Source of the DNA: Rhodobacterales bacterium
Lineage (GTDB): Bacteria > Myxococcota_A > UBA796 > GCA-2862545
Assembly: GCA_009936995.1 (NCBI GenBank)
Contig: JAACDH010000441.1
Span: 1-38,247 of the forward strand
Direction: 5' to 3'
Length of the DNA: 38,247 bases
Under the pieces are notes generated by a model. The model worked only from the letters and a program-made list of their open reading frames with translations, had not been told where the DNA came from and did not search any database. The translations under genes were made by a program, and so were the position numbers. Position 1 is the first letter of the stretch; every line of letters starts with the position of its first letter. This document shows positions 1,317 to 27,240 of the stretch, in pieces.

Positions 1317-2213
1317 ATGTCACAGCCCTTCTCCACACCACTCTCCCGTCGCCTGGGGCTTCGCTACCCGCTTGTGGCGGCGCCGATGTTCCTGATCTCC
1401 AACAAGGAGATGCTGGTGGCCTGCGCCGAGGCTGGCATGATGGGCGCGATTCCCAGCTGGAATTGCCGCACGTCCGAGGGCTTCGAAGAGATGCTCCGCT
1501 ACGTGAAGGACAAGACGGAGAAGCCGTTTGCCATCAACGTGACGATCGGCCTCACCGACCCCGAGAGGCTCTACCGTGACGTGGAACTGTGCGTCGAATA
1601 CGAAGTTCCCGTGATGATCACCAGCTACGGCAACCCCACCGAGATCGTGAAAGCGGCCCACACCAAGAACATCACGGTGTTTCACGACGTGGTGAACCTG
1701 CGTCACGCCAAGAAGGCCGAGGCCGCAGGGGTAGATGGTGTCATTGGCGTCAGCCAGGGCGCTGGCGGCCACGCGGGCGAGATCAACCCGTACGTACTGG
1801 TTCCGTACCTGAAACAGCACCTATCTACGCCGATTATCGCGGCGGGCTGCATCTCCACTGGCGCACACGTGGCCGCGGCGTTCAGCCTGGGAGCAGAGCT
1901 GGCCTACATGGGCACCAAGTTTATCGCCAGCGTCGAGTGCGGTGCCCAGCCTGAGTACAAGGATATGGTGGTCAACGCCACCCACCGTGACATCGTCTAT
2001 ACGAATCAGGTATCCGGGGTAAACGCCAACTTTCTAAAGGACACCATTCCCGCAGAAACGTCGCCTCTGCGCGAAGATGCCAAGCGCTGGAAGGACATTT
2101 GGAGCGCTGGGCAAGGCGTGTCGCTTATCGACGACGTGCCCACGATCGAGCAAATCGTGGACCAAGTCGCCAAGGAATTCCACGACACCGTTGGGATGCT
2201 GGGCGCCCTCTAG
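1317..2213 (+). CDS. Nitronate monooxygenase / 2-nitropropane dioxygenase-like flavoprotein
   Basis: A 298-aa FMN-dependent TIM-barrel protein of the NMO/FabK-like superfamily. Visible signatures are the N-terminal L-x-x-P-L-V-A-A-P-M strand (residues 15-24), SQGAGGHAG (146-154), which carries the family's conserved glycine/histidine phosphate-binding and catalytic loop (H152), and A-A-G-C-I-S-T-G at the next FMN phosphate site. Length is at the short end of the family. The ATG at 1317 follows AGAGG at 1307-1311 with a 5-nt spacer. It is transcribed divergently from the FAD oxidoreductase across a 236-bp gap and ends 12 bp from the convergent GAPDH gene. The physiological substrate cannot be read from sequence; nitronate oxidation is the family default and an enoyl-reductase-like role is a minor alternative. 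Confidence 0.85.
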   Translation: MSQPFSTPLSRRLGLRYPLVAAPMFLISNKEMLVACAEAGMMGAIPSWNCRTSEGFEEMLRYVKDKTEKPFAINVTIGLTDPERLYRDVELCVEYEVPVMITSYGNPTEIVKAAHTKNITVFHDVVNLRHAKKAEAAGVDGVIGVSQGAGGHAGEINPYVLVPYLKQHLSTPIIAAGCISTGAHVAAAFSLGAELAYMGTKFIASVECGAQPEYKDMVVNATHRDIVYTNQVSGVNANFLKDTIPAETSPLREDAKRWKDIWSAGQGVSLIDDVPTIEQIVDQVAKEFHDTVGMLGAL

Positions 2214-2225
2214 CGACTGTTCTTC

Positions 2226-3662
2226 CTACGGGAACGCCAGGGGCGTGACACCGGCGATCTCTTGCATCAGGCGGACCACCTGGCAGGAATAGCCGAACTC
2301 GTTGTCGTACCAGACGTACAGCACGCAGCTCTTGTCGCGGGCGATAGTCGCCACCGAGTCGACGATGCCGGCGTGGTGGTTGCCGACGAGGTCACTAGAG
2401 ACGAGTTCGGGCGACACCGAGTAGTCGATCTGGGCGTGCAGCGGTCCGTTCATGGCGGCCAGGCGCAAGTGCTCGTTGAGGCTGTCGCGGTCGACCTCTT
2501 TCTCGAGTTCGAGGTTGAGGATAGCCAGCGACACATTAGGCGTGGGCACCCGAATAGCCGAGCCGGTGAGCTTCCCCTTGAGGGAGGGAAGGGCCTTGGA
2601 AGCCGCCTTTGCGGCACCGGTGGAGGTGATGACCATATTGAGCGGTGCGGCCCGGCCTCGTCGGTCCTTCTTGTGGAAGTTGTCGATGAGGTTCTGGTCG
2701 TTGGTGAACGCGTGAATGGTCTCGAGGTGGCCGCGAACGATGCCGTACTGGTCGTGCAGGGTCTTAAGAACGGGCACAATGCAATTGGTGGTGCAGCTGG
2801 CCGCCGAGAAGAGGGTCTCTTCATCGCGGATGTCTTGGTTGTTGACGCCAAACACGATGTTCGGAATGTCGTCGCCAGGAGCGGTGAGGATGACCTTGGC
2901 AGCACCTTTGGCCTTCAGGTGCAGGCCGAGGGCCTCGCGGGTACGCCAGATACCGGTGTTGTCGATGACGACGGCGTTGTGGATGTTGTGGGCCGTGTAG
3001 TCCAGTTCGTCCGGATTGTTGGCAAACAGGACCTTGATCATCGCGCCGTTGGCGATGATGACGCTGTTCTCTTCGTCGACCGTGACCGTTCCGTGGAAGG
3101 GCCCGTGCACGGAGTCTCGGGCGAGCAAGCTGGCCCGTCGTTGCAGATCGGACTTGGCCGAGGGACGAAGAACGATGGCCCGCAGTCGGTACTTGTCGCC
3201 GCCGCCGGTCTTGTTCACCAAGATGCGTGCGACCAGGCGGCCGATGCGACCGAAGCCGTAGAGGACCACGTCCTGGGGCTGGTCGGGCAGGGCGCGCGGC
3301 GCGTCGAACAACGGCTTGAGCGCGTGTTGCGCCCACACTTCGACGTCGGCGTAGTCCGACTTGCCAAACTGAATCAGCAGCTTGCCCACGTCGATGCGAG
3401 CTCGGCCCAGGCTCATCGCCCGCATTCGTTTCAGCAAGGACACCATCTCGGACAAGGAGAGGTCTTGGCCGACGTATCGACCGGCCGCGTTGGCGATACT
3501 GATGATTTGGATCGGTGTCTTTTGTACCAAAGACGTCCCGAAGACGCAGATCACCAGGGCTTGCTCTCGGTAGAGCTTGCCGGCCAGGGGCACGATGGCC
3601 TCCGCCATGGCCTCTTGTAGCTTCCAGGTCTTGAGCGTGCGGTTGGTCATTTGGTCAGACAT
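2226..3662 (-). CDS. gap: Glyceraldehyde-3-phosphate dehydrogenase, long form with N-terminal extension
   Basis: A 478-aa phosphorylating GAPDH (glyceraldehyde-3-phosphate + NAD(P)+ + Pi to 1,3-bisphosphoglycerate). The Rossmann motif GFGRIGR is at residues 136-142 and the catalytic motif A-S-C-T-T-N-C at about 288-294, with nucleophile C290. Usual GAPDHs are near 335 aa; the extra ~130 N-terminal residues match the architecture of the long GapB-type enzymes known in Pseudomonas and relatives. The ATG at 3660-3662 has AAGGAG 5 nt upstream, so the longer possible reading to 3800 is rejected. The gene stands alone, convergent with the nitronate monooxygenase-like gene. Cofactor preference and glycolytic versus gluconeogenic role are not resolved. 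Confidence 0.95.
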   Translation of the reverse strand: MSDQMTNRTLKTWKLQEAMAEAIVPLAGKLYREQALVICVFGTSLVQKTPIQIISIANAAGRYVGQDLSLSEMVSLLKRMRAMSLGRARIDVGKLLIQFGKSDYADVEVWAQHALKPLFDAPRALPDQPQDVVLYGFGRIGRLVARILVNKTGGGDKYRLRAIVLRPSAKSDLQRRASLLARDSVHGPFHGTVTVDEENSVIIANGAMIKVLFANNPDELDYTAHNIHNAVVIDNTGIWRTREALGLHLKAKGAAKVILTAPGDDIPNIVFGVNNQDIRDEETLFSAASCTTNCIVPVLKTLHDQYGIVRGHLETIHAFTNDQNLIDNFHKKDRRGRAAPLNMVITSTGAAKAASKALPSLKGKLTGSAIRVPTPNVSLAILNLELEKEVDRDSLNEHLRLAAMNGPLHAQIDYSVSPELVSSDLVGNHHAGIVDSVATIARDKSCVLYVWYDNEFGYSCQVVRLMQEIAGVTPLAFP

Positions 3663-3787
3663 TCGGGCTCCTTTGGATCCAGGGGTCGCCGTTAGCCGAA
3701 TTGGGCAACGAGTGGGAGGAATTCTAGTGAAAAAAAGCGGTGGGTCTTTTGGTGCGATGACCTCGACCGCGATGCTATGGCTTCCGT

Positions 3788-4996
3788 ATGGCGACAGCAC
3801 CCCAAGTACACGGCATGGTCCAGCCTGGTTTCGAGCCAGTGCGCGAGGCCCTTATCAAGAACTTTACCCACTTCGGTGAGTACGGAGCCAGCGTCTGTGT
3901 GATTCGGCACGGCGAGGTTGTTGTGGATCTCTGGGGTGGATTCGCAGATGTCGAAGAAGTTCGTCCCTGGGAGCGCGACACCATGGGCGTTTTGTTTTCG
4001 TCCACCAAGGGTTTAGCGGCGATCTGCCTGTTGATGCTTCACGATCGCGGCCTGCTGGACTACGACGCCCCGGTCGCCACGTATTGGCCCGAGTTCGCGG
4101 CTCATGGCAAGCAGAACATCACGGTGCGCACCTTGCTTTGCCACCGCGCGGGCTTGATTGCGCTAGAGAAGGATCTCTCCTTGGCTGACATGGCCCATCC
4201 AGAGAAGATGGCGGCCGTCGCTTCCGACACCATCCCCGCTTGGACACCAGGCGAAGCGCAGGGCTACCACGGTGTCAGCTACGGCTACTTCGTGGCGGAG
4301 TTGTTCCGTCGGATCACCGGCGAGAGCGTTGGCACCTTCTTGGCCCGTGAAGTTGCATCTCCGCTAGACGCCGATGTGCACATCGGCCTGGCGGCCGACC
4401 TCGATCACCGAGTGGCCAAGATGTACATGCAGCGAAAGCGCGATGTGATCACCAAGATTCTGCCGCGGATCTTGCTGTCACCGAAGGTCGAGGGCCGCGT
4501 GTACCGCTCTGTCCTGTTCGGTGGCGCCGAGAGTCGCACCCGTCGAGCCTTCGCAAATCCGTCCGCTCTTGGGACGAAAGCTGTGGGCAACTTCAACAAG
4601 CCCGAAGTGCGACGGCTGGAGCTTCCCTGGGCCAATGGCATCGGAAACGCCCGTGGACTGGCACGAGTGTACCAACCCCCCGCGCTGGACGGGTCCCACA
4701 ACGGTGTCCGTTTGGTTCGCGAAGAAGTCGCTCGTTTGCCGATTCCTCGACACAGCTGGTCCTACGATCAGGTACTGCATAGGCCGATGGGATTTACCCT
4801 GGGATTTGTAAAAGAGGAACCGCAGCTGTTCTCTCCCAATCCAGATGCGTTTGGTCACCCGGGCGCCGGTGGCGCGTTGGGATGGGCCGACCCGGTCGAG
4901 GGACTGTCCATTGGATACGTTCTTAATCGTATGGACTTTCGCATCCGGAGCAGGCGCGCGCTGGCCCTTTGTCACGCCCTCTACACCTGCATCTGA
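3788..4996 (+). CDS. Serine hydrolase, class C beta-lactamase/esterase fold
   Basis: A 402-aa penicillin-binding-protein-like serine hydrolase (Beta-lactamase, EstB/LACTB group). The catalytic S-x-x-K motif is S71-S-T-K74; a Tyr-containing segment around residues 160-167 (GYHGVSYGYF) fits the second motif; GHPGAGG near residue 367 replaces the KTG box, as is common in esterases of this fold. No signal peptide is visible, so a cytoplasmic esterase or peptidase is more likely than a periplasmic beta-lactamase. The start is uncertain: the ATG at 3788 lacks a clear ribosome site, and ATG 3815 (MVQPGFE) is possible. It reads away from GAPDH and is separated from the next operon by a promoter and Fur box, so it looks monocistronic. 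Confidence 0.85.
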   Translation: MATAPQVHGMVQPGFEPVREALIKNFTHFGEYGASVCVIRHGEVVVDLWGGFADVEEVRPWERDTMGVLFSSTKGLAAICLLMLHDRGLLDYDAPVATYWPEFAAHGKQNITVRTLLCHRAGLIALEKDLSLADMAHPEKMAAVASDTIPAWTPGEAQGYHGVSYGYFVAELFRRITGESVGTFLAREVASPLDADVHIGLAADLDHRVAKMYMQRKRDVITKILPRILLSPKVEGRVYRSVLFGGAESRTRRAFANPSALGTKAVGNFNKPEVRRLELPWANGIGNARGLARVYQPPALDGSHNGVRLVREEVARLPIPRHSWSYDQVLHRPMGFTLGFVKEEPQLFSPNPDAFGHPGAGGALGWADPVEGLSIGYVLNRMDFRIRSRRALALCHALYTCI

Positions 4997-5064: not shown

Positions 5065-5098
5065 ATTTTCAATTGAAAATGAAATTCATTTTCAATTG
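5065..5098. promoter_or_regulatory. Fur box (extended palindrome)
   Basis: Positions 5075-5093 read GAAAATGAAATTCATTTTC, 15 of 19 matches to the classical Fur consensus. It is the core of a perfect 14-1-14 palindrome (5070-5098) and overlaps a second perfect 16-bp palindrome, ATTTTCAATTGAAAAT (5065-5080). The overlapping hexamers suggest several Fur dimers binding side by side over the transcription start. The genes behind it (imelysin, FecA-like receptor) are iron-uptake genes, so repression by Fe-loaded Fur is the natural reading. Confidence 0.85.
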
Positions 5099-5128
5099 GC
5101 CGAGGCATCCCCTCACGAGGCACCGAGC

Positions 5129-6577
5129 ATGACACGGACTGGGAAGAATACATCATCAACACTCTTTTTCTTGATCGTGTTGATGGCGTGTGGAACGGAT
5201 AAATCGAACATAGATACGGGAGCGGAGTTCATCTCTACCGAGACAGAGGTGCCCGCCTCGTACGACTTCGCCAGTCGCTTCGACGGTGAGTCCTCGGTTT
5301 CGTACAGCGGTCAGGCCTTCCGACACTTGCTCGTCAACGACGTCACGTCCTACATCGGCGGCATCACGGGTCGCATCGACGGCGGAAGCTACTTCCCGGT
5401 TTCCGGTGAGGTGACTGTAGAGCTCGGCTTCTACCTGGCCTTCGACAGCAGCACATCTGGCTCCCTCAACACACTGACGGTCACTGACCCGCCGGCCCTT
5501 CAGGCCACCTACGACGATCTCTCCTCGGACAAAGACCTCCTCGGAAAGCTGGCTGGAAACGACCCCGTTGGCCAGCACGTAGACTGGTCCACCGGCTTTG
5601 TGGGCTGGGACCAGGACGGTGTGACCACGCCACAGTCCCTGGTCGACGTCTGGGTCGCGAAGATCGACGAACAGGCCGTGGGCTGGGTATCCGGCGACCT
5701 GCCCCTCGATCCTCGGGGTGCCCCAGTTCCCGCTGTGTACGTCACCGCCGAGGGTCAAGATCTGCAGCAGCTGATGGACAAGTTCCTGCGGGGAGCCGTC
5801 GCCTTTAGTCAGGGCGCAGACGACTACCTCGACAACGATGAGCCGGGCAAGGGTTTGCTCGCCGACCACAGCGTCGCCGAAGAGGGTAAGAACTACACCG
5901 CGTTAGAACATGGCTGGGACGAGGGGTTTGGCTACTTTGGTGCGGCCCGTGATTACCCGGCCTGGACCGACGACGACATCGCCGATCTGGGCTACCGTGA
6001 CGTCAACCAAGACGGAGCCATCGACTTGTCCTCCGAGATGAACTGGGGCCACTCGGTGAACGCCGCCAAGCGCGACCGAGGCAGCGCGCAGTCTGCGCCC
6101 AACGACTTCACCGCTCAGGCCTGGGAAGGCTTTGTCAACGGGCGCGCGCTGTTGGCCAACACCAGCGGCCCGCTCACCGACGATGAGATGGCCGAGCTTG
6201 TGGTCCACCGCGACCAGGCCCGACTGGCTTGGGAGAACGCCATTGCCGCCACCCTGGTGCATTACATCAATGACGTCCTCCAAGACATGGAGGCCATGGA
6301 CACCGACGAATACAGCTTCGCTGACCACAGCAAACACTGGTCCGAGCTGAAGGGATTCGCCCTGGTTCCGCAGTTCAACCCGGCCTCGCCTCTGAACGAT
6401 GCCGACTTCGCCACCCTGCACGACTTGCTCGACACCCAGCCCGTCCTCGAAGCCGGAACCGAGTCCGAGCGTGCCGAATACATGGACGACCTGTTGCAAG
6501 CCCGGGCCCTCATCGGCGGCGCCTACAGCTTCCACTCTGACAATCTTGGAGACGATCGTGGTCTCAATGGCTGGTAA
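5129..6577 (+). CDS. DUF4856-family lipoprotein of the iron-uptake operon
   Basis: A 482-aa predicted lipoprotein. The signal peptide ends in the lipobox L-M-A-C with lipidated C21. The mature part begins with a YDFASRF-type segment followed by S-S-V-S-Y-S-G-Q, which I recognise as the DUF4856 family, often encoded next to imelysin genes. The biochemical function is not established; a cell-surface or periplasmic part in iron capture is inferred from context. ATG 5129 has ACGAGG 8 nt upstream; a TTG at 5096 in the same frame lies inside the Fur palindrome and is rejected. It is the first gene of the operon, and its 3' end overlaps the imelysin start by 11 nt (ATGGCTGGTAA), implying translational coupling. 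Confidence 0.8.
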   Translation: MTRTGKNTSSTLFFLIVLMACGTDKSNIDTGAEFISTETEVPASYDFASRFDGESSVSYSGQAFRHLLVNDVTSYIGGITGRIDGGSYFPVSGEVTVELGFYLAFDSSTSGSLNTLTVTDPPALQATYDDLSSDKDLLGKLAGNDPVGQHVDWSTGFVGWDQDGVTTPQSLVDVWVAKIDEQAVGWVSGDLPLDPRGAPVPAVYVTAEGQDLQQLMDKFLRGAVAFSQGADDYLDNDEPGKGLLADHSVAEEGKNYTALEHGWDEGFGYFGAARDYPAWTDDDIADLGYRDVNQDGAIDLSSEMNWGHSVNAAKRDRGSAQSAPNDFTAQAWEGFVNGRALLANTSGPLTDDEMAELVVHRDQARLAWENAIAATLVHYINDVLQDMEAMDTDEYSFADHSKHWSELKGFALVPQFNPASPLNDADFATLHDLLDTQPVLEAGTESERAEYMDDLLQARALIGGAYSFHSDNLGDDRGLNGW

Positions 6578-7775
6578 ATTCAACGGCTGGCGTGTGGTGG
6601 GTGGTCTCCTCCTGTTGGTCACGCTACGCCCCATGGCCTGTGCGGCACCCGACGTGGGCAACAGCGGCCTGCCTCCCGAAGTTTCGGCGTTGGTCGCAAC
6701 GTTGTTGGGCAATGTCGGACCCGAAGTGGTACTGCCCGCGCTCGAAGACTACCAAGCCGCAGCCATCCCCCTCGATCAGGCGCTGAATGACTGGGCCTCG
6801 GCGGCGCAGACTGGCGGAGATGCCGTGGCGGCTAGGCAGTCCGCACAAGACGCCTACCGAGACGCCGCCGTCTCCTGGCAGGCCGTCGAGATGCTCCAAT
6901 TGGGACCGGCGGGTTCTTCGCTCACGGTCACCGCCGGCCAAGATCTGCGCGACGAGGTGTACTCCTGGCCCACCATCAACCCCTGCCGTGTCGACCAAGA
7001 GACCGTCGAGGCGGCCTGGGATACGGCTGACTTCTTTACGGAAAACCTTGTCAATAGCTATGGTCTCGACGCCCTCGAGCACGTGCTCTTCGCCGAGGAC
7101 GTCAATGCGTGTCCTGGGCAAGTCGACATCAATGCGGACGGCACCTGGGACGCGCTCGGTACCGATGGCGTGGCCCTCAACCGGGCGGAGTTTGCTGTCG
7201 CGCTATCGGCTGGCGTGAACGAAAACGTCGCGGAGCTGGTGAACGCTTGGTCGGTGAGTGGTGGTGACTTTGGCGCCGATTTGGCTAAATCTGGCGAGGG
7301 TTCATCCTCCTTCGCGTCGATGGAGGACGGATTGAACGCTGTCTACGACGCGCTGTTCTACTTAGAGTTGGTGACCAAGGACCAAAAGTTGGCCAAACCC
7401 TTGGGGCTGGTCGATTGTACAGCGGCAACCTGCCCCCTCGATGTCGAGGGGCTTGCGTCGGATGCGTCAGTGCCGATGATTCGCGCCAATCTAGAGGGCT
7501 TTCGGACGCTGTTTACCGGCGCCGATGTGGAGGGGATGGACGACCTGTTGGTAGCGCTGGGCCACGGAGATCTGGCGGTCGAGATCGTCGAGGCCGTAGA
7601 CGCCGCCATCGTCGCCACCGATGCCATCGACGGCCCTCTCTCCGATGCCGTGGATTCGGTCGAGGCGATGGACTTGCACGATGCAGTCAAGGTCGTCATC
7701 GACTTGGTCAAGGGCGATCTGGCCACCGTGCTCACGCTGCAAATCCCCAACGAAGCAGCAGGCGATGCCGACTGA
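6567..7775 (+). CDS. Imelysin-family (peptidase M75-like) iron-regulated protein
   Basis: A 402-aa exported imelysin-like protein, a helical family found in periplasmic or surface iron uptake. The N-terminus has a hydrophobic stretch and P-M-A-C (C25), a poor but possible lipobox. The family fingerprint region reads GLDALEHVLF (166-175): the usual G-x-H-x-x-E has D168 where His is expected, with E171 retained, so it is a non-canonical variant and peptidase activity is not implied. Two starts are plausible: ATG 6567 (used here) and GTG 6558, which has better spacing (5 nt) from GGAGA at 6548. It overlaps DUF4856 upstream and the hydroxylase-receptor gene downstream (ATGCCGACTGA), each by 11 nt. 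Confidence 0.85.
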   Translation: MAGKFNGWRVVGGLLLLVTLRPMACAAPDVGNSGLPPEVSALVATLLGNVGPEVVLPALEDYQAAAIPLDQALNDWASAAQTGGDAVAARQSAQDAYRDAAVSWQAVEMLQLGPAGSSLTVTAGQDLRDEVYSWPTINPCRVDQETVEAAWDTADFFTENLVNSYGLDALEHVLFAEDVNACPGQVDINADGTWDALGTDGVALNRAEFAVALSAGVNENVAELVNAWSVSGGDFGADLAKSGEGSSSFASMEDGLNAVYDALFYLELVTKDQKLAKPLGLVDCTAATCPLDVEGLASDASVPMIRANLEGFRTLFTGADVEGMDDLLVALGHGDLAVEIVEAVDAAIVATDAIDGPLSDAVDSVEAMDLHDAVKVVIDLVKGDLATVLTLQIPNEAAGDAD

Positions 7776-10700
7776 AGTCTGGACATTGCTGGCGCCGTTC
7801 ACCGACCCCGCCAGCCGGACCCATTGGCTGGCGCTGCTCACGGGTGCGTTGCTGGCCGCTGTCTTCCTGTTCTGGGTTTCGGAACGTCGAGATCTGAAGA
7901 CGCTCGCGAAGATTCCGTCCCAACTGCTTCCCGTGCGATACCTCCGCCATCCCAGCGTTGCCCTCGACGTGCAGCTGCTCATGGCTCATCAGCTGCTCAG
8001 TGTGCTGATCACCGCGCCGGTGTGGGCCGGTAGCTGGTACTTGGCCACCCACCTCACGCGTCTTCTCGATGGCGCTGTCGGCGTGCCGAACCTCGGCGTT
8101 GAGAGCGGTTGGATGCTCTCCATTGCCTTCTCGTTGACGCTGTTTGTGGTCTGGGACGCCAGCCGCTGGGCGCTTCACTGGTGTGTGCATCGGGTCCCCG
8201 CCTTGTGGGCGCTACATCAAGTACACCATTCAGCCGAAGTTCTCACTCCGCTCAGTTTTCATCGCGTTCACCCCCTGGAATCACTGCTGTTTCAAGCCCG
8301 CGCGGCCATCGTCACCGGCACCCTCAGTGGGCTGTTCTTCTGGGCGTTCCGCGGCGCCGCGACCGACATCACGGTGTTGGGCGTGCACGCCATTGGACTG
8401 GTGATGAACCTCACCCACGGGAACCTCCGCCACAGTCCGGTGTGGTTAGGATTCCCCGATGTTGTCGAGCGCTGGTTCATCAGCCCGGCTCAACACCAAG
8501 TGCACCACTCCGCGGACGCCGCCGAGCAGCGGTGTAACTACGGCACCTGGCTCGCCGTTTGGGACCGAATGGCGGGAACCCTTCGCCTCTCCGGCGACCA
8601 ACCTCCAGCCACCCTCGGACTGGCCGCAGGCGAGAGAAATCACGGCAACGACCTGGTCTCAGCATGGTTCGGTCCGCTCCTCGACGTGCTGGGCTTGCGT
8701 CGACTTCTCCCGGTTCTCGCGTTGGTTATTCCCTTTAGCGCCCAGGCGGCAGACGATGAGGAAGCCGCGGAGTTGACCGCCTTGGGCGAGGAGATCATCG
8801 TCTACTCCCCCGACGGAACGCCTCGGGTGGCGGGCTCGGCTCACGTAGTCGACGAGGAGCAGCTAGAGCAGTTCGAGTACGACGACGTGCATCGTATCCT
8901 GAACAAGGTGCCCGGCGTTTATGTTCGCGGAGAAGACGGTTTTGGTCTGCGGCCGAACATCGGAATCCGTGGAGCCAACAGCGATCGAAGCGCGAAGATC
9001 ACGCTGCTGGAAGACGGCGTGTTGCTCGGTCCGGCCCCCTATGCGGCTCCAGCAGCCTATTACTTTCCCCTGGCCACTCGGTTGGTTGGCGTCGAAGTCT
9101 TCAAGGGGCCCGCCGCCATCACCCATGGTCCCCAAACCGTAGGCGGCGCGATCAACCTGCGCACCCGCGACGTACCGACCCAAACCGACGCCGCCTTCGA
9201 TCTGGCCTATGGCATGCGGCGGACGGCTAAGCTGCACGCCTGGACGGGCACCGGAAATGAACGGGCTGGCGTACTTATCGAGGGCGTTCGGTTGACTAGC
9301 GGCGGCTTCAAGGAGCTCGACGGCGGTGGTCCAACCGGCTTCGACCGCACCGAGTGGATGCTCAAGGGCCGGCTGGCTACGGATCCGGCCCTCAAGTTGT
9401 CCCAGTCTCTGGCGCTGAAGCTCGGCTACAGCAGCGAGCGCTCCAACGAGACCTACCTGGGTCTGTCTGTCGCGGACTACGCAGAGAACCCGTACCGTCG
9501 CTACGCCGCCAGCGCCGAGGGCCTGATGGACTGGAAACGCACGCAGGCCGAGCTGGCGTGGAGTTTCGACATCGGCCAAGTCCGGGCCCGCACCGTGGCA
9601 TATCACCACTACCTGACCCGGGGTTGGCGCAAGCTGAACGCTTTCTCCGATGGCACCGATCTGCACGATCTGCTGCAGAATCCCGAGGGCGGCGCTTCGG
9701 CGGTCTACCTGGGTATCCTCCGCGGCGACGAAGACACCGCCACCGATAGCCAGAACCTGCTCATCGGCACCAACGACCGTCGCTTTCAGGCGGGCGGACT
9801 TCAGACCACGGTGAACTGGCAGACCCGGATGGTGAACGGCGTCCAGAGCACCCTAGAGACCGGAGTACGTATCCACCACGACGACGTGAAGCGGCTGCAC
9901 ACCGAAGACACCTACGCCATGATCGGCGGCCGCCTGAATCAGCTCGACGTCCCCACCCAGACCACCCTGGACAGCGACGCCACCGCGACGGCCATCGCCG
10001 CTCATCTCCAGGACGACGTGCAGGTGGGTGCCGTGCACATTCTTCCCGGTGCCCGCGTCGAGTCGATTCATACCGAACGCGTCGATGTGGGAGGTCCACT
10101 GTCGCCCGCGGACCGACGAACCATCCTGTTACCTGGCCTTGGACTGCTCTGGTCCGCCATGGGCGACGTCAACCTGTTCTCGGGCGTCTACCGCGGCTTT
10201 AGTCCGGTTCCGCCCGGCTCCCTCGCGAGCGTCACCCCTGAGACCGCCTGGAACTGGGAAGCGGGCGCTCGGCATGGCGGCTCCGGTCAGTGGCACGGCG
10301 AGCTGGTGGGGTACTACAACGACTACCAGAACCTCAGTGGACAGTGCACGTCGTCTGGCGGCTGCACTCAAGAGCAGCTTGACCAGCAGTTCGATGCCGG
10401 CCAAGTACGGATCGTCGGTCTGGAAGCTGTGGCCGCCCAAGAATTCTTGCTGCCCCATCGAATGCGGCTGCCGATTGAGGCCACCTACACCTACACGTCG
10501 TCCGTATTCATGACCAGCTTCAATAGTGAGTTTCCGCAGTTTGGTTCCGTCGATGCTGGCGACCGGCTTCCCTATGTCCCCAGCCATCAAGGTGCGCTGC
10601 GGGCCTCGCTGTCTCATCCGCGCTGGCGGGTGGGCGCGGTGGCCACCCATCGCTCTGGCATGGATGATATAGCCGGCGGTGGTCCGCCTGAAAATCCCGC

Positions 10701-10884
10701 GGTGCCTGCGCTTACCCAACTAGATGTGGCGGCGGATATGCAGTTGACCAAGCATTGGGCGATGTACACGAACGGCACCAACCTACTGGCCAACCAGTCG
10801 GTGGTGTCCTGGCGCCCGTTCGGCGCGCGCCCTACCGCGCCCTTTCAGGTGATGGTGGGTATCAAGCTGACTCCCCCCGAGTAG
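7765..10884 (+). CDS. Fusion: sterol-desaturase-family membrane hydroxylase + FecA-like TonB-dependent receptor
   Basis: A single 1039-aa frame. Residues 1-300 are an integral-membrane di-iron hydroxylase (fatty acid hydroxylase/sterol desaturase superfamily) with several hydrophobic segments and the three His clusters: HWCVH (138-142), HQVHH (151-155) and HQVHH (244-248). Residues 311-328 then look exactly like a signal peptide (L-R-R, hydrophobic LLPVLALVIP, A-Q-A cleavage site). From 329 follows a TonB-dependent receptor: a TonB-box-like EEIIVYS, a plug with GLRPNIGIRG and a Y-F-P-L segment as in FecA, then a beta-barrel to the end, finishing T-P-P-E rather than a terminal Phe. ATG 7765 overlaps the imelysin stop. 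No stop or frameshift separates the halves. A TTG at 8695 (codon 311) could start a separate receptor, but no ribosome site is visible there. The receptor probably imports ferric chelates; the hydroxylase substrate is unknown. Confidence 0.85.
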   Translation: MPTEVWTLLAPFTDPASRTHWLALLTGALLAAVFLFWVSERRDLKTLAKIPSQLLPVRYLRHPSVALDVQLLMAHQLLSVLITAPVWAGSWYLATHLTRLLDGAVGVPNLGVESGWMLSIAFSLTLFVVWDASRWALHWCVHRVPALWALHQVHHSAEVLTPLSFHRVHPLESLLFQARAAIVTGTLSGLFFWAFRGAATDITVLGVHAIGLVMNLTHGNLRHSPVWLGFPDVVERWFISPAQHQVHHSADAAEQRCNYGTWLAVWDRMAGTLRLSGDQPPATLGLAAGERNHGNDLVSAWFGPLLDVLGLRRLLPVLALVIPFSAQAADDEEAAELTALGEEIIVYSPDGTPRVAGSAHVVDEEQLEQFEYDDVHRILNKVPGVYVRGEDGFGLRPNIGIRGANSDRSAKITLLEDGVLLGPAPYAAPAAYYFPLATRLVGVEVFKGPAAITHGPQTVGGAINLRTRDVPTQTDAAFDLAYGMRRTAKLHAWTGTGNERAGVLIEGVRLTSGGFKELDGGGPTGFDRTEWMLKGRLATDPALKLSQSLALKLGYSSERSNETYLGLSVADYAENPYRRYAASAEGLMDWKRTQAELAWSFDIGQVRARTVAYHHYLTRGWRKLNAFSDGTDLHDLLQNPEGGASAVYLGILRGDEDTATDSQNLLIGTNDRRFQAGGLQTTVNWQTRMVNGVQSTLETGVRIHHDDVKRLHTEDTYAMIGGRLNQLDVPTQTTLDSDATATAIAAHLQDDVQVGAVHILPGARVESIHTERVDVGGPLSPADRRTILLPGLGLLWSAMGDVNLFSGVYRGFSPVPPGSLASVTPETAWNWEAGARHGGSGQWHGELVGYYNDYQNLSGQCTSSGGCTQEQLDQQFDAGQVRIVGLEAVAAQEFLLPHRMRLPIEATYTYTSSVFMTSFNSEFPQFGSVDAGDRLPYVPSHQGALRASLSHPRWRVGAVATHRSGMDDIAGGGPPENPAVPALTQLDVAADMQLTKHWAMYTNGTNLLANQSVVSWRPFGARPTAPFQVMVGIKLTPPE

Positions 10885-20809: not shown

Positions 20810-22171
20810 TTACAGCGACTGGGGAATCATCAGCGGGTACTCGGGCACCAGCGGCTCGGTCTGAAGCACGTAGGGCTTGAGGAACCCCCAAAGCTCTTGG
20901 GTCTTGGCATCTTCGGGGTCGTACAGGTTGTCCTGTTCGTCGGGGTCGACCTGGAGGTTGTAGACCGCTGCACTTCCCGACCAGTTGAAGATCATCTTCC
21001 ACTGGCCAACGATGACCGATTGCACTGCACCTAAACGGGCCACCGACGTGGCGAATCGAGGGGCGTCGGGGTCGCGATCGCCCAGCGGGAAGCCGGTGAC
21101 AGCGTCGGGAATGTCGATGTCCCAGAGCTTCAGTAGGGTGGGGACCAGATCGATGCTCACCGTAGGGTCGGCATGCGAGTCGGGTACGATATTGCTGGCC
21201 CAGAAGATGGCGAATGCGTCGTTCTCTTCTCGGGTGAGGCCGTAGGCGTGGGTTTGGCGTCCGTGCTCCCAGAACTGCTCACCATGGTCGTTGAAGATGA
21301 CCACCAGGGTGTCGTCGAGGAGGCCGCGAGACCCCGCGTCGGCCAGGATCAGTTGGAGCTGGTCGTCCCAGTATTTAACCTCACCCTCGTACCGGATCCG
21401 CAGGTGTTGCTCTAGCAGCGCTCGTTGATCTTCGGGCATCACGCCCCACTGGGCTATCGCCTCGTACTGCTCGTCTTTGTCGGACAGGTCCCACTGCATG
21501 GGGGCAAGCGTCAGCGTCTCATTAATGTAGTTGAGCGGTGGATTGTAGGGCGCGTGGGGTTCCATCAGATGGACGTGCAGGAACCAGGGGTCCTTGTTGC
21601 CATACTGGATTTGGTTCTGCATCGCTACGGCGCCGGCCAGGTAGATGTTAAGGGCGTTGGCTTTGTTTCCCGACAGCGTCGTCTGGTAGCCCTGGGTGTT
21701 GTTCCAGCGGCCGCCGAACCAGGAGTTGCCGCTGTGCAGCAGGGTGTTGTAGCCCGCGTCGCTCAGCCACTCGGCGAGGAAGTCAGCGTCGTTATGCAGA
21801 GGAACTCGAGTATCTTTGGCCAAACGTGGGATAAACCCGTTGTCGACGTTGTCGCCGCCGCGCATGGTGCAGGTCATGCTCGCAAACGTCCAGTTGGAGC
21901 ACTGGGTGTGGTTGTCCAGGGTGTATCCAGCGTCCGCGAGGGCGTTCAGGTTCGGTGTGAGCTTCAGGTTGCCATACCGATCGATGTGGTCCTTGCGGAA
22001 GGTATCGACAGAGATCATCAGTAGGTTCTTGGGCACCGAGCCGTAGAAATCGGGGAGGGTGCCGACTCGGGTGCTCTCGTCGAACACCGGTGGCTCGCCC
22101 TTGACTGCTGGTGGCCCCCAAGCGCCGGGGTCGCAGCTGATGAGCAGCAGGACCACAATCGCCGAGCGCAT
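20810..22171 (-). CDS. Sulfatase-superfamily lipoprotein 1 (non-FGly)
   Basis: A 453-aa lipoprotein (L-I-S-C, C13) of the sulfatase/alkaline-phosphatase superfamily. The first metal-ligand motif is L-L-M-I-S-V-D56-T-F-R-K-D; F-N-D-H-G-E-Q-F-W-E-H-G carries the late metal ligands. Where type I sulfatases have C/S-x-P-x-R, this has W-T95-F-A-S98, so no formylglycine can form and Thr95 is the likely nucleophile, as in phosphoethanolamine or glycerolphosphate transferase relatives. ATG 22171 overlaps the upstream gene's stop (TGATG), so it is the last gene of a three-gene operon. Substrate unknown. Confidence 0.85.
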   Translation of the reverse strand: MRSAIVVLLLISCDPGAWGPPAVKGEPPVFDESTRVGTLPDFYGSVPKNLLMISVDTFRKDHIDRYGNLKLTPNLNALADAGYTLDNHTQCSNWTFASMTCTMRGGDNVDNGFIPRLAKDTRVPLHNDADFLAEWLSDAGYNTLLHSGNSWFGGRWNNTQGYQTTLSGNKANALNIYLAGAVAMQNQIQYGNKDPWFLHVHLMEPHAPYNPPLNYINETLTLAPMQWDLSDKDEQYEAIAQWGVMPEDQRALLEQHLRIRYEGEVKYWDDQLQLILADAGSRGLLDDTLVVIFNDHGEQFWEHGRQTHAYGLTREENDAFAIFWASNIVPDSHADPTVSIDLVPTLLKLWDIDIPDAVTGFPLGDRDPDAPRFATSVARLGAVQSVIVGQWKMIFNWSGSAAVYNLQVDPDEQDNLYDPEDAKTQELWGFLKPYVLQTEPLVPEYPLMIPQSL

Positions 22172-24657
22172 CAGTGATCGCCCTCGATGTAGCCGAGCTC
22201 TTCGAGGAGTGCACGCTCCGCGGCGTCGACGTCGACTTTGGCGCGCAACGCCAGCATTCGGGACATCTCGCTGGGCGGCGGAACCAGGACCGGACCTGCT
22301 TCGACCCGGAGGGCTGCTGGCGTAGAAACGGTGACCGCCGCGGCGTCGACGGCTTGTTCGAACTGCACCCAGAGGACACCGTCTTTTGGGGACGGGCCGG
22401 GGGCGTAGGTGAGCGTGAGGCCGTCGTCGCTGAGTGCGACAGTGCCGATGTCGGCAGGGAGGCGTTTTGGGGTCTCTCCCCATTCGAGGTTGGCGCGATG
22501 GGGAAGCGTGGCGTCGGGGTCGAGCACGTCGGCTGCGGTGGCCTTGGTCGGCAAGGTGACGGTGATAGCCCCGCTGTCGGCTTCAGCATCAACAAACAGC
22601 CGTAGACCTGGTTTGACCGGCAGATGGTGGGCCTCGCCAAGGGCGTTTTGCCATGGGGTGAGATCGACACCTGAGGCGCTAAGGTCGTTCTCTTCGCCCA
22701 CGTCGTCTGCCAGCTTGTACAGCTCTTCGCGACCGGTGCCGGTGGTGAGGATGTACTTATGGCCGTCGAGGACCACAGCCCACGCTTCGCGCTCGTATTG
22801 TAGATACGCTATCGGGATGGGACGAGACCAGTCGCCCTCGTCGGCACCATCGAACCAAGGAACCAAGCTCTTGCCGTCGGTTTCGGGCGCGTCAGACAGA
22901 CCCAATACGCTGTATAGGGTGGGCGCGATGTCCATCAGGCTGGCGGGTGTGGCGACGCGATGTGCGTACTTCAATCCGCCGCCGGGGCGCACCCAAAGGA
23001 CGGTTCGGGTGACCTCATCGTACAGCGTATGGTTGTGCTCGAAGCCACCGTGGTCCCAGAACTCTTCGCCGTGGTCGCTGTGGATGACGACTAAGGTCTT
23101 TCCAGGTAGCTTGTCGAGCTCGGTGAACAGTCGTCCCAGCTCTTGGTCCATGTAGGTCATCTCGCCGTCGTGGCGGGCCTCGATGTGGGCCTTGCGCTGG
23201 TCGGTGGCTTTGTCGGCATGAGACCACTTGTTCACGTCCCACCGGTTGTACTTTGCGGGAAGCGTGTCGTCGGGATCGGTGACGTACATCGACTCGAAGT
23301 CGCCCGGGGCATTGTAGGGAAGGTGTGGGTCCATAAAGTGCAAGAACAGGAAGGTGTCGCGGTCGTTGTGGTTGCCCAACCACTGAAGGGCGAGGTCGAC
23401 TTGATCCTCGGCGTCGTTCTTGCCTTCGTAGTTCCACCAGTCGAAGCCGTGGTCGAAGTCGAAGCGCGGCTGCAGGTGTACATTGGCGACGATGCCAGCG
23501 GTAGCGAAGCCCTGGGCCTGGAAGGTGACACCGAGGTTGGTGGCGCCGACAGCATCGAGGGGCAGGCGACCCGTGGTGGCGCTGCGGAAGCTGGGACGGG
23601 TGCGTGGTGCCACCGACCAGGTGTTCTCAAACACTGCGGATTCACCAGCGATTCGGTCCATATTGGGCGTGCCGCCACCTTCGTATCCGTTGACGCCAAA
23701 GTGGTCGGGGCGGGTGGTGTCCATGGCCAACACAATCACCCGGCGAACGTCGTCCTTCGGGGCGGCCCAGACGGTGGGAGAGCCCAAGAAGGCCCAGTCG
23801 AAGTTGGAGTTTCCGCCAACCTCGGAAGACAGACGGAGCGTGATCTCCTTGCCGGTGTAGGCTGATAGATCTGCAGTAAACTTGACGAAGTTCTTGGTGC
23901 CGGGGACGAGCTTCTTACGGGCGAGCTCGGTGACCTCTGCGCCATTGACCACGGAGACCACAATGGTGGTTCCGTCGGGCTTTGGCGTAGAGAGCGCCGG
24001 TGCCTCGAGGGCGAGCCAGGTCTCGAAGTGCGCCGAGTCGGAATCGGGAAGATCGAGTGTCCAGCTGGCTGTGCTGGGGGCTGGCAGAATCATGCCGTGA
24101 CGAGTGACTTTGTCCAAAGTGAGGTCGTATGCAACGAACTCCTCGGCCGAGAGCCCGGATTCCCGAGGATTGTGGCGCTTGATGCTGTCGCTGATGCCGG
24201 CGTAGCGGACCGTCATCTCTTTGGCGAGAGTCGGGTAAGCCAGCACGATGTGCTTGCCGGCGACGCGCCAGGTGGCGGTGGCGGTCATGGCGGCCTTCTG
24301 ACGAGAGAAGGGCACAACCTCGCCATCCATCTCGATGGTGAGGCCGATGGGAGCAAAGCGCTGGTCTTCGCTGCTGACCGGGAAGGGTAGCTTGGCCCGA
24401 AGAACCTTGAGCTTGCGCGCGACGTGCTTCGGGTTCGGGATCTCCTCGAGCGTCAGCGTAAATGAGTCGCTGAGGTCATCGGGGAGATTGGGCTGGCCGA
24501 GGTCGTATTCGCCGGGAAGACGCGCCAGCGCGAAGGATGTGACCGCCGAGGGGCCCGACATGTCGGGAAAGTCGTCGGCGGTGCCAGTGCCAGGAGAACG
24601 CTGCGCGCCCCCGGTACAGGCCAGCACGAAGGCCAGCAATACGGGAGGCATTCGCAT
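22171..24657 (-). CDS. Sulfatase-superfamily lipoprotein 2, large multidomain
   Basis: An 828-aa lipoprotein (V-L-A-C, C14). Residues ~40-300 appear to be beta-rich domains of unknown type; the catalytic domain (about 304-650) has V-I-V-L-A-M-D313-T-T-R-P-D-H and HSDHGEEFWDHGG; a further beta-rich C-terminal part follows, ending ELGYIEGDH. The nucleophile site is T353-R-P-S356, again lacking Cys/Ser of the formylglycine motif. ATG 24657 lies 3 nt after the DsbA-like stop with AGGG upstream; ATG 24651 is possible. It is coupled to sulfatase-like gene 1. Likely a surface or periplasmic phospho- or sulfo-ester hydrolase or transferase. Confidence 0.85.
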   Translation of the reverse strand: MRMPPVLLAFVLACTGGAQRSPGTGTADDFPDMSGPSAVTSFALARLPGEYDLGQPNLPDDLSDSFTLTLEEIPNPKHVARKLKVLRAKLPFPVSSEDQRFAPIGLTIEMDGEVVPFSRQKAAMTATATWRVAGKHIVLAYPTLAKEMTVRYAGISDSIKRHNPRESGLSAEEFVAYDLTLDKVTRHGMILPAPSTASWTLDLPDSDSAHFETWLALEAPALSTPKPDGTTIVVSVVNGAEVTELARKKLVPGTKNFVKFTADLSAYTGKEITLRLSSEVGGNSNFDWAFLGSPTVWAAPKDDVRRVIVLAMDTTRPDHFGVNGYEGGGTPNMDRIAGESAVFENTWSVAPRTRPSFRSATTGRLPLDAVGATNLGVTFQAQGFATAGIVANVHLQPRFDFDHGFDWWNYEGKNDAEDQVDLALQWLGNHNDRDTFLFLHFMDPHLPYNAPGDFESMYVTDPDDTLPAKYNRWDVNKWSHADKATDQRKAHIEARHDGEMTYMDQELGRLFTELDKLPGKTLVVIHSDHGEEFWDHGGFEHNHTLYDEVTRTVLWVRPGGGLKYAHRVATPASLMDIAPTLYSVLGLSDAPETDGKSLVPWFDGADEGDWSRPIPIAYLQYEREAWAVVLDGHKYILTTGTGREELYKLADDVGEENDLSASGVDLTPWQNALGEAHHLPVKPGLRLFVDAEADSGAITVTLPTKATAADVLDPDATLPHRANLEWGETPKRLPADIGTVALSDDGLTLTYAPGPSPKDGVLWVQFEQAVDAAAVTVSTPAALRVEAGPVLVPPPSEMSRMLALRAKVDVDAAERALLEELGYIEGDH

Positions 24658-24660
24658 GAA

Positions 24661-25728
24661 TTAGCCCTGTTGACGTGCGAGTTCGGCGTCGATGATTTCG
24701 GAGAAGGCCTCGATGGGCTGCGCGCCACCCAGGAACCGACCGTTGATGAAGAAGCCGGGCGTTCCGGTGACCCCCGCAGCGGAACCGGCAGCGGTGTCGG
24801 CTTCGACCATAGCCGTGTACTTACCCTCGGTCACGCACGCGGTGAACTTGTCGGCGTCCAGGCCAAGCTCGGTGGCGTAGCTGGTGAGGTCGGCGTCTTG
24901 GAGGGCTCGTTGGTTGGCGAACAGGACGTCATGGTATTCCCAGAACTTACCTTGATCGTTTGCACACATGCTGGCCGCGGCGGCTTGAGGCGCCCGGTCG
25001 TGGAACGAGAGCGGGAAGTGACGGAAGACCACGGTGACGCTGTCGCCGTACTTCTCTTTCACTTCGTCGATGGTGGCGGCCCCACGGGTGCAGTAGGGGC
25101 ACTGGAAGTCTGAGAACTCGATGATCTCGATGGGGGCGTCCGCATTGCCGTAGCGTGGGCCGTCACCGGCTGCGACGATGATGCGGGGCGGATCGAGCGT
25201 GACCTTGATGTTTGCCTTGGCCTTGAGCTCGTTCACGAACGCGAGGGAGCGATCTTGCTTGGACTTGTTCTCGAGAAAGCCCTTGACCTGGTCGCGCATG
25301 GTGGACAGGTCGCCGCGCATCCGAGCCTTGTTGGTGTTGTAGAAGGCCTCGATTTCGGCGTCGGTTGCAGGCGTGAACTTGGCCTCGACCTCGGCAGCGA
25401 GCAGCTCTTCGGCGGTGACGCCGCGGGACTTGGCCTCGGCATCGTACAGGCGTTCGCTGATGAGGCTGTCGAGCGCGGTGGAGCGCACATCGAAGCGCTG
25501 TTGGTCGACCTTGACCAGGCCGGAGGCGGCGCTGAGGTCGACGTCGGCGAGGGTGATGTTTTCACCGTGAACCGTCGCGACGACCGTGGTGGCGGTCTGG
25601 GCGGCTCCTCGGGCTCCGGCGTCCGCAGGCGTCGCTGCGGCAGCGTCGGTGACGGCGGCACCGTTGGTGGTTTCGTTGCAGCCGATTAGGCCGAGGGCGA
25701 TAGTAAGTGCGAGTGCGCGGGCGAACAT
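24661..25728 (-). CDS. DsbA-like thioredoxin lipoprotein with SurA-N-like region
   Basis: A 355-aa lipoprotein (L-I-G-C, C17). An Ala-rich linker leads to a helical SurA_N-like chaperone segment (about 50-170; E-N-I-T-L-A-D-V-D near its start) and then a DsbA/Thioredoxin_4 domain: F-S-D-F-Q-C210-P-Y-C213 active site and TGTPGFFING with the cis-proline at 324. This combination fits a periplasmic disulfide catalyst or foldase. ATG 25728 has AGGAG 6 nt upstream. It is the first gene of the operon with two sulfatase-like lipoproteins, and sulfatase-like 1 has a C91/C101 pair that it might oxidise; this last point is inference. Confidence 0.85.
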   Translation of the reverse strand: MFARALALTIALGLIGCNETTNGAAVTDAAAATPADAGARGAAQTATTVVATVHGENITLADVDLSAASGLVKVDQQRFDVRSTALDSLISERLYDAEAKSRGVTAEELLAAEVEAKFTPATDAEIEAFYNTNKARMRGDLSTMRDQVKGFLENKSKQDRSLAFVNELKAKANIKVTLDPPRIIVAAGDGPRYGNADAPIEIIEFSDFQCPYCTRGAATIDEVKEKYGDSVTVVFRHFPLSFHDRAPQAAAASMCANDQGKFWEYHDVLFANQRALQDADLTSYATELGLDADKFTACVTEGKYTAMVEADTAAGSAAGVTGTPGFFINGRFLGGAQPIEAFSEIIDAELARQQG

Positions 25729-25836
25729 GTGGTTCTCCTGTGGGACCGCCGGTATGTACCCGGTTTGTTATGGAATTGCCCACACAGCGATTAATCCTGA
25801 CACTTCACGACGGGCGTATGCCGGTTATGGGGCGGT

Positions 25837-27240
25837 ATGCGCCTGAAAAAAACTCTCGGACTCCTGCCATCCCTATGGGTGGCCGTCGCGGCCTGTGGTG
25901 CGCCCCCCCCCCCGACGACAGCCTCGGTCCCCGACGGGCAGCCGCAGCATGTGCTGATCATCTCCATGGACACGGTGCGTGCAGATGCGCTGGGCGCGTG
26001 GGGCTCCACCACGGGCGCCACGCCTCATTTAGACGCGCTCGCAGCGAAATCGGTGGTTTTCGTTCAGCACACCAGCGCGGCTCCAACGACGCTCGCCTCC
26101 CACACCTCCCTAATGACCGGGCGCTATCCACATTACCATGGGGTTCCGCGAAACGAGCATCGAGTCAACGACGCAAACGCAATGCTCGCCGAGCGAATGG
26201 GCGATTCGGGCTTCGAGACGGCGGCGTTCCTAGGCGCCATGCCCCTCGCCAGCCACTCCGGTTTTCTCCAGGGATTCTCTCACGTCGATGCCCGCTTCGA
26301 TCGCCAGCGCGAACCCGGCTTGTTCAACCAGACGGAGCGATCCGGAGATCAGGTGACGGACGCGGTTTTCGCCTGGGTCGATGACGCCGATCGCGCCAAG
26401 CAGCGGTTGTTTCTATTTGCCCACTATTTCGACGCGCACCAGCCCTACCTACCGAGCGCTCTGCGACGGCAACAAGTGGGGGCTACGGGCACGCGAGCCA
26501 CGCTAGATGAAGTTCGCGCGGTGGCGAATGCGCTGTCCCTCGCCAATCCAGACGATCCGCGGGCGGCCGAGCTGCGTGGGTTGTACGCGGCCGAAGTGGC
26601 GGCGGTGGACGAAGAGGTCGGAAGACTCCTTAGTGGGCTCGCAGACCGGGGCCTTACCGATCTGTTGGTGGTGGTCTGGGCCGATCACGGCGAGGGTTGG
26701 AGCCACCCAACCGATCGTTTTTACCATGGCTACGGCGTCTATCAAGAGACGGTTCATACACCACTAATCTGGTGGGAACCTGGTGTTTATCCCTTGCAGA
26801 TCTCCCATCCGGTTAGTTCGGTGGACATCGTCCCCACGCTTCAAGCGCGGTTTGATCTTCCGGCGCTCGCCAGCGATGGCGTCGACATGACACCCCTGGT
26901 GCGCGGAGAGCGGGTCGCCGTCAGACCTCTGTTTAGCGAGGCCACCAAGCCCCTCGATCCCGGCGAGGGCTGGCTAAACGCGAACCGACTCAAGTCCGTT
27001 CGAATGGGCACCCTGAAGCTGATCTGGAACCCCGTCGACGACGCCGTCCAGCTGTACGATCTGGTGCGCGACCCGAACGAGACCCGCGACCTCTCAAAAC
27101 GGCCGGGTCGCCGACCGGACGTGGTCCGTCTACGAGGTCTGGTGCAGACCTGGGCCCTTCAAGCGAATCCGCTTCCGACTCAGCGTGTCGAGAGCGGTGC
27201 GGTACTCGATCAGCTCCGAGATCTTGGCTATCTCGAGTAG
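25837..27240 (+). CDS. Sulfatase-superfamily lipoprotein 3 with poly-C tract
   Basis: A 467-aa lipoprotein (V-A-A-C, C20) with H-V-L-I-I-S-M-D45-T-V-R-A-D, WADHGEGW and the site T85-L-A-S88-H in place of C/S-x-P-x-R; the next residues TSLMTGRYP are typical of the superfamily. It reads divergently from the DsbA-like operon across 108 bp. Directly after the lipidated Cys, an 11-C run encodes P23-P26; slippage there would frameshift the entire mature protein. The C-terminal Q-L-R-D-L-G-Y-L-E tail resembles that of sulfatase-like 2, suggesting shared ancestry. Substrate unknown. Confidence 0.85.
   Translation: MRLKKTLGLLPSLWVAVAACGAPPPPTTASVPDGQPQHVLIISMDTVRADALGAWGSTTGATPHLDALAAKSVVFVQHTSAAPTTLASHTSLMTGRYPHYHGVPRNEHRVNDANAMLAERMGDSGFETAAFLGAMPLASHSGFLQGFSHVDARFDRQREPGLFNQTERSGDQVTDAVFAWVDDADRAKQRLFLFAHYFDAHQPYLPSALRRQQVGATGTRATLDEVRAVANALSLANPDDPRAAELRGLYAAEVAAVDEEVGRLLSGLADRGLTDLLVVVWADHGEGWSHPTDRFYHGYGVYQETVHTPLIWWEPGVYPLQISHPVSSVDIVPTLQARFDLPALASDGVDMTPLVRGERVAVRPLFSEATKPLDPGEGWLNANRLKSVRMGTLKLIWNPVDDAVQLYDLVRDPNETRDLSKRPGRRPDVVRLRGLVQTWALQANPLPTQRVESGAVLDQLRDLGYLE
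25903..25913. repeat. 11-bp poly-C homopolymer in sulfatase-like 3
   Basis: Eleven consecutive C residues lie within the reading frame immediately behind the lipobox. The present length keeps the frame open. Such tracts are prone to slippage and also to sequencing indels. Confidence 0.95.

Follow-up and report, generated by a model that had tools for sequence, protein, structure and literature searches.

We found that a single reading frame in a 38,247-nt stretch of DNA (contig JAACDH010000441.1, hereafter the window) runs without interruption from a membrane hydroxylase, through a segment with the signature of an internal signal peptide, into a complete FecA-like TonB-dependent receptor, and that the same fusion is conserved in 31 genomes, the window's own included. 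We consider it probable that this frame encodes an iron-regulated natural polyprotein, in which the hydroxylase stays behind in the inner membrane, export of the receptor starts at the internal signal peptide, and the chain is cut by signal peptidase I after residue 328. The cleavage is inferred, as proteomic or processing data are absent.

The fused reading frame and its relatives

The open reading frame (7765-10884, plus strand) spans 1,039 amino acids and contains no stop codon at any point. Its earliest in-frame start is ATG 7621, and homology starts at about residue 4-8 of the reading from ATG 7765. Its parts are as follows.

7765-8685, plus strand: hydroxylase part, residues 1-307; PF04116 at residues 125-272, three histidine boxes, helical AlphaFold model with pLDDT mostly about 75-96
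8686-8748, plus strand: internal signal peptide, residues 308-328; predicted signal peptidase I cut at 328/329 after A-Q-A, from a comparison of 31 fusions with a shuffle control
8749-8826, plus strand: acidic linker with TonB-box-like EEIIVYS, residues 329-354; net negative in 31 of 31 fusions, IIV motif in the consensus
8827-9150, plus strand: receptor plug, residues 355-462; PF07715, E=2e-13
9151-10884, plus strand: receptor beta-barrel, residues 463-1039 plus the stop; PF00593, E=3e-33, Foldseek top match FecA 1po3

The three Pfam matches (FA_hydroxylase at 125-272, Plug at 355-462, and the TonB barrel at 672-1007) all exceed their gathering cut-offs. The enzyme part is a member of PF04116 both by score (75.6 bits against a gathering threshold of 31) and by its three histidine boxes, and the clusters H138/H142, H151/H154/H155, and H244/H247/H248 are invariant in the 30 aligned fusions; di-iron hydroxylation activity is inferred only. 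The remainder qualifies as a TonB-dependent receptor through its PF07715 and PF00593 domains, its FecA-like fold, and the signal peptide in front of them, with EEIIVYS inferred to be the TonB box. An AlphaFold2 model with 30 fusions as input reached a mean pLDDT of 85.7, with confident predictions for both the helical enzyme domain and the barrel, which are joined by a low-confidence stretch (residues 314-340, pLDDT below 50). Foldseek matched the receptor to FecA 1po3 with a TM-score of 0.85 on the target and 18% identity. An STN domain is absent from the window protein and from each of 30 fusions, so the receptor has a FecA-like fold but is not a FecA-type signal transducer, and the NCBIfam cut-off for FecA equivalogs was not reached (95 bits versus 1,100). 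An earlier note on this DNA, made from the letters alone, had described a membrane hydroxylase with three histidine clusters running in one frame, without a stop, into a FecA-like plug and barrel; the open frame, the domain and structure matches, and the recurrence of the fusion bear out this description in each of its parts.

We searched relatives for the same fusion, a check that the earlier note had suggested, by scanning 379 genomes across the window's phylum and 63 genomes of its order; other phyla were outside the systematic search. Uninterrupted single-frame fusions were found in 31 genomes, counting the window, from nine families (f1, f2, f4, f5, f6, f7, f15, f32, and f49), and identity to the window protein is about 42-57% for the full-length fusions and 58-59% for two MAG fragments. 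Two public MAG contigs, JAERSX010000188.1 (Deltaproteobacteria bacterium BH17, placed by NCBI in Myxococcota) and CALGIB010000182.1, are also fused; they probably correspond to G295 and G309, with which they agree in the length and position of the match, and were counted once. From these records we infer that the window's phylum is almost certainly Myxococcota. Outside this count remain five genomes (G092, G262, G285, G175, and G292) that are probably fused but interrupted by contig ends or frame offsets. Among plasmid records, matches were confined to the receptor and all fell short of 80% query coverage. Long receptor ORFs of 1,000-1,335 aa in other families (L054-L067) were considered as extra fusions and none was counted, because in the three that we read closely (L055, L061, and L063) the receptor begins with its own Met and signal peptide; the extra N-terminal stretch in these is an out-of-frame reading of an adjoining HTTM gene.

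Unfused forms also occur. In G049 (same family), hydroxylase and receptor are separate genes that overlap as GTGA exactly at the junction (L048, about 4183-4190, plus strand), which suggests translational coupling, and in G322 and G312, whose receptors are the nearest to the window's in one tree, the pair is split and the enzyme is encoded at a separate locus. The fusion is thus not essential, since a few relatives are split. Unfused receptors elsewhere generally have their own start and signal peptide, followed by a similar acidic linker. Receptor trees in which uncertain rows were masked require no fewer than five state changes along well-supported branches (in the second tree count G285, the receptor contig of G205, G157, G137, and G292 were masked as contig-edge or unclear), so the fusion has been gained, lost, or both, several times, and the trees cannot tell which. 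We also observed that the split hydroxylase of G312 (L087) bears a signal-peptide-like tail (RRLAVGLPVVWVLSPGPARG), after which the sequence is unrelated; this tail is possibly a remnant of a former fusion.

The junction and the inferred release of the receptor

Residues 308-330 of the window protein read V-L-G-L-R-R-LLPVLALVIPFS-A-Q-A^A-D (RR-LLPVLALVIPFS-AQA^AD at 312-330), and both alternative frames carry stops around the junction. Across the aligned fusions the hydroxylase closes with the C-terminal consensus NHxxxLxSAxxxPxxxAxR. In nearly all 31, basic residues come next, then a hydrophobic core and a small-X-small motif, and lastly an acidic linker whose length varies. As picked, the small-X-small motif is A-X-A in 27 of the 31, and A326 is conserved in at least 90% of the 30 aligned fusions. 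Under a strict test that required A-X-A, a hydrophobic 10-mer at the proper distance, and polar residues after the motif, 26 of 31 junctions passed, whereas 200 shuffles of the same segments gave 1.2 on average and never more than 5. The signal peptide that the earlier note had placed at 311-328, ending in A-Q-A, is therefore supported. For six pairs of fusions, dN/dS was 0.24-0.62 over the hydroxylase tail together with the signal peptide and 0.26-0.66 in the linker; these values are rough, with synonymous sites fairly saturated, but values below 1 in both segments indicate that translation passes through the joining segment in this frame.

These observations bear on three other readings of the locus. 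That the window carries a sequencing or assembly artefact, a stop or frameshift missed at the junction, might be suspected from its source, an incomplete MAG (78% complete, 724 contigs), and from the frame offset at the junction of one relative, G292. In the latter, the enzyme's frame differs from the receptor's, the offset falling in a G-rich stretch, and no start codon is present in the frame of the receptor (L047/L026, around 5170-5260, minus-strand reading), which makes an indel error likely though unproven; a real frameshift remains possible. A shared assembly error is excluded by the presence of the fusion in 31 separate genomes at about 42-59% identity, so an artefact is refuted for the family, and with protein-level constraint acting at the junction as well, we give it next to no credence for the window. 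Neither of two findings that the earlier note said would refute its model has emerged: no stop or frameshift recurs at the junction among relatives, and relatives with two separate genes do not stand alone, because fused relatives are common. We also think it very improbable that the fusion works uncleaved, with the hydrophobic segment as a permanent anchor that ties the receptor to the inner-membrane enzyme and bridges both membranes. Linkers of more than 100 residues in some members could span the periplasm, but A-X-A cleavage motifs are retained in nearly all fusions, and the distance from the motif to the plug region in the window and most members (about 15-55 residues) is too short. The window has about 27 residues between cut site and plug, with a reach of at most about 9.5 nm, and the periplasm is usually deeper than this; we infer that an uncut chain could not put the barrel into the outer membrane, which leaves cleavage after residue 328 as the simplest model.

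A separate start for the receptor is harder to dismiss, although we still hold it to be unlikely. Here the frame would be continuous as observed, with most receptor nevertheless made from its own initiation at GTG 8686 or TTG 8695, and the read-through chain would be minor or degraded. Both codons are in frame at the window's signal peptide, an ATG lies near the signal peptide in 8 of the 31 fusions, and the GTGA overlap of G049, with its likely translational coupling, falls at the same place. Against this, neither the position nor the codon of such a start is conserved, and nine of the 31 fusions (10 before a mis-picked case, L052, was removed by hand) have no ATG, GTG, or TTG in the required stretch, so that ordinary internal initiation could not produce those receptors with their signal peptide. 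Moreover, the hydroxylase has no stop codon, so each ribosome that finishes the enzyme enters the receptor. The earlier note had named initiation at TTG 8695 only as a further way in which its model could fail; the relatives without a start codon speak against this, and for the window genome it cannot be excluded.

We therefore return to the polyprotein model, whose steps are inferred. The ribosome would produce a single chain of 1,039 residues, and the hydroxylase would enter the inner membrane with its catalytic histidine clusters and C-terminal tail in the cytoplasm, a topology taken from its family. The next hydrophobic segment, after the basic residues, would then traverse the membrane from inside to outside as an internal signal peptide, and signal peptidase I would cleave after A326-Q-A328, leaving the spent signal peptide on the hydroxylase as an additional C-terminal membrane helix. 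The freed receptor, comprising acidic linker, TonB box, plug, and barrel, is expected to assemble in the outer membrane as a FecA-like importer of iron chelates. Because one chain would be cut in two, enzyme and receptor would be produced one-to-one.

Iron context and a second fusion partner

The fused gene belongs to a cluster in the order DUF4856, imelysin, and hydroxylase::receptor, whose ORFs overlap and which is preceded by a Fur-box-like site.

5075-5093, no strand assigned: Fur-box-like operator GAAAATGAAATTCATTTTC, a 9-1-9 palindrome matching the E. coli Fur consensus at 15/19 positions
5096-6577, plus strand: DUF4856 protein gene, first in the cluster; PF16148, E=2e-13, same position in relatives
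6399-7775, plus strand: imelysin (M75) gene; PF09375, E=6e-23, ORF overlapping both neighbours

The imelysin stop and the hydroxylase ATG 7765 overlap by 11 bases. The operator-like site is the best match to the Fur consensus in the 38-kb window (the next best reaches 13/19), and sites of this kind lie upstream of the cluster in many relatives, with 14-17/19 in several and 17/19 in L096, while some have no good site; the scores of the window and of these relatives' sites were matched by 0-1 of 200 shuffles. A Fur box upstream of the first gene is thus present in the window as a sequence match, with no Fur binding shown. In many of the window's other relatives in the phylum, imelysin and receptor flank a separate gene that encodes HTTM and VKGC lumenal domains; such an HTTM/gamma-carboxylase-like gene takes the hydroxylase slot in L074, L055, L061, L063, and L068 (tested against Pfam in L074 only). 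In Riemerella, a receptor, a gamma-carboxylase-like protein, an imelysin, and a hypothetical protein were grouped as Fur-regulated under iron restriction (PMC5609570), and imelysin-like proteins have been implicated in iron uptake (PMC3143127). The cluster is probably a Fur-regulated iron-uptake system, and the fused receptor likely imports an iron chelate; neither its ligand nor the hydroxylase substrate has been determined.

Elsewhere in the window we noted a protein with Cu-binding MopE metal-binding motifs (27304-28908, minus strand), a DsbA-like thioredoxin gene amid three sulfatase-family genes (20813-27237), and a glyceraldehyde-3-phosphate dehydrogenase ORF with about 175 residues ahead of the NAD-binding domain (2229-3800, minus strand).

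In three genera of family f28 (G077, G352, and G265), the same hydroxylase instead continues in frame into imelysin (L085 of G077 at 1914-4025, minus strand; L100; and L101). The joining segments GLGVLLLLGGC, ALAAVLLLSC, and GLSVLLCLIGC end in LGGC, LLSC, and LIGC and, judged by sequence, look like internal lipoprotein boxes of the signal peptidase II type. That the C-terminus of the same enzyme is joined to another exported partner supports the view that its C-terminal tail faces the cytoplasm and can precede an internal signal peptide. We incline to a broader reading, in which the hydroxylase makes up, in the window's phylum, the N-terminal half of bacterial polyproteins and internal signal peptides send the other half to different envelope compartments (the outer-membrane receptor via signal peptidase I, or, in a separate lineage, the iron-binding imelysin as a lipoprotein via a signal peptidase II lipobox), an arrangement gained or lost several times, with the spent signal peptide kept as an added helix of the enzyme. 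This second fusion, the DUF4856, imelysin, and Fur-box context, and the unfused and overlapping-gene forms all go beyond the earlier note.

Significance and known systems

Normally, each outer-membrane protein is synthesised as a precursor of its own, headed by an N-terminal signal peptide, and usually it reaches Sec post-translationally. If our model is true, delivery of this receptor would be co-translational, in the wake of an inner-membrane enzyme, with signal peptidase setting it free, and the ratio of the two proteins would be fixed at one-to-one across two membranes. The fusion would then be a recurrent, testable case of a bacterial operon becoming a polyprotein, and it would connect an as yet uncharacterised hydroxylase with iron uptake, at a position that an HTTM/gamma-carboxylase-like protein holds in other bacteria. 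Annotation pipelines based on the N-terminus would mislocalise the fused protein. Literature searches on imelysin with sterol desaturase and on bacterial polyproteins returned nothing about a hydroxylase::receptor fusion. What makes the fusion unusual is that its products belong to different membranes and that a second partner, imelysin, is joined in the same way.

Among solved structures, FecA, the ferric dicitrate receptor (PDB 1po3/1kmo), is the best match to the receptor in both structure and sequence, sharing plug and barrel, but the fused receptor has no STN domain, is only about 18% identical, and carries its signal peptide internally, behind a hydroxylase. With the fatty acid hydroxylase / sterol desaturase superfamily (PF04116) the enzyme shares three invariant histidine clusters and membrane helices, and it matches the ornithine-lipid hydroxylase OlsE weakly, far below the curated NCBIfam cut-off; it differs from these in sitting in an imelysin iron cluster and in being fused to an exported partner. 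The DUF4856-imelysin-HTTM-TonB receptor operons of Bacteroidota such as Riemerella, and of other Myxococcota, have the same gene order and receptor type, but their middle gene is a separate HTTM/gamma-carboxylase-like one, where the window has a hydroxylase fused to the receptor.

The closest precedent is FbcH of Bradyrhizobium, the rhizobial cytochrome b/c1 precursor, in which a polytopic inner-membrane protein, an internal signal sequence, and an exported protein are encoded in one frame and cut after synthesis, and whose partner genes are separate in other bacteria. The window protein meets the same description in that one ORF, in 31 genomes, joins a membrane protein to an exported one by way of an internal signal peptide, with cleavage into two mature proteins inferred. 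An organisation around an internal signal peptide is thus known in principle; what appears to be new is that an inner-membrane enzyme and an outer-membrane receptor are joined. Both FbcH products remain in one inner-membrane complex, whereas here a hydroxylase is paired with an iron-type receptor, which must travel on to the outer membrane.
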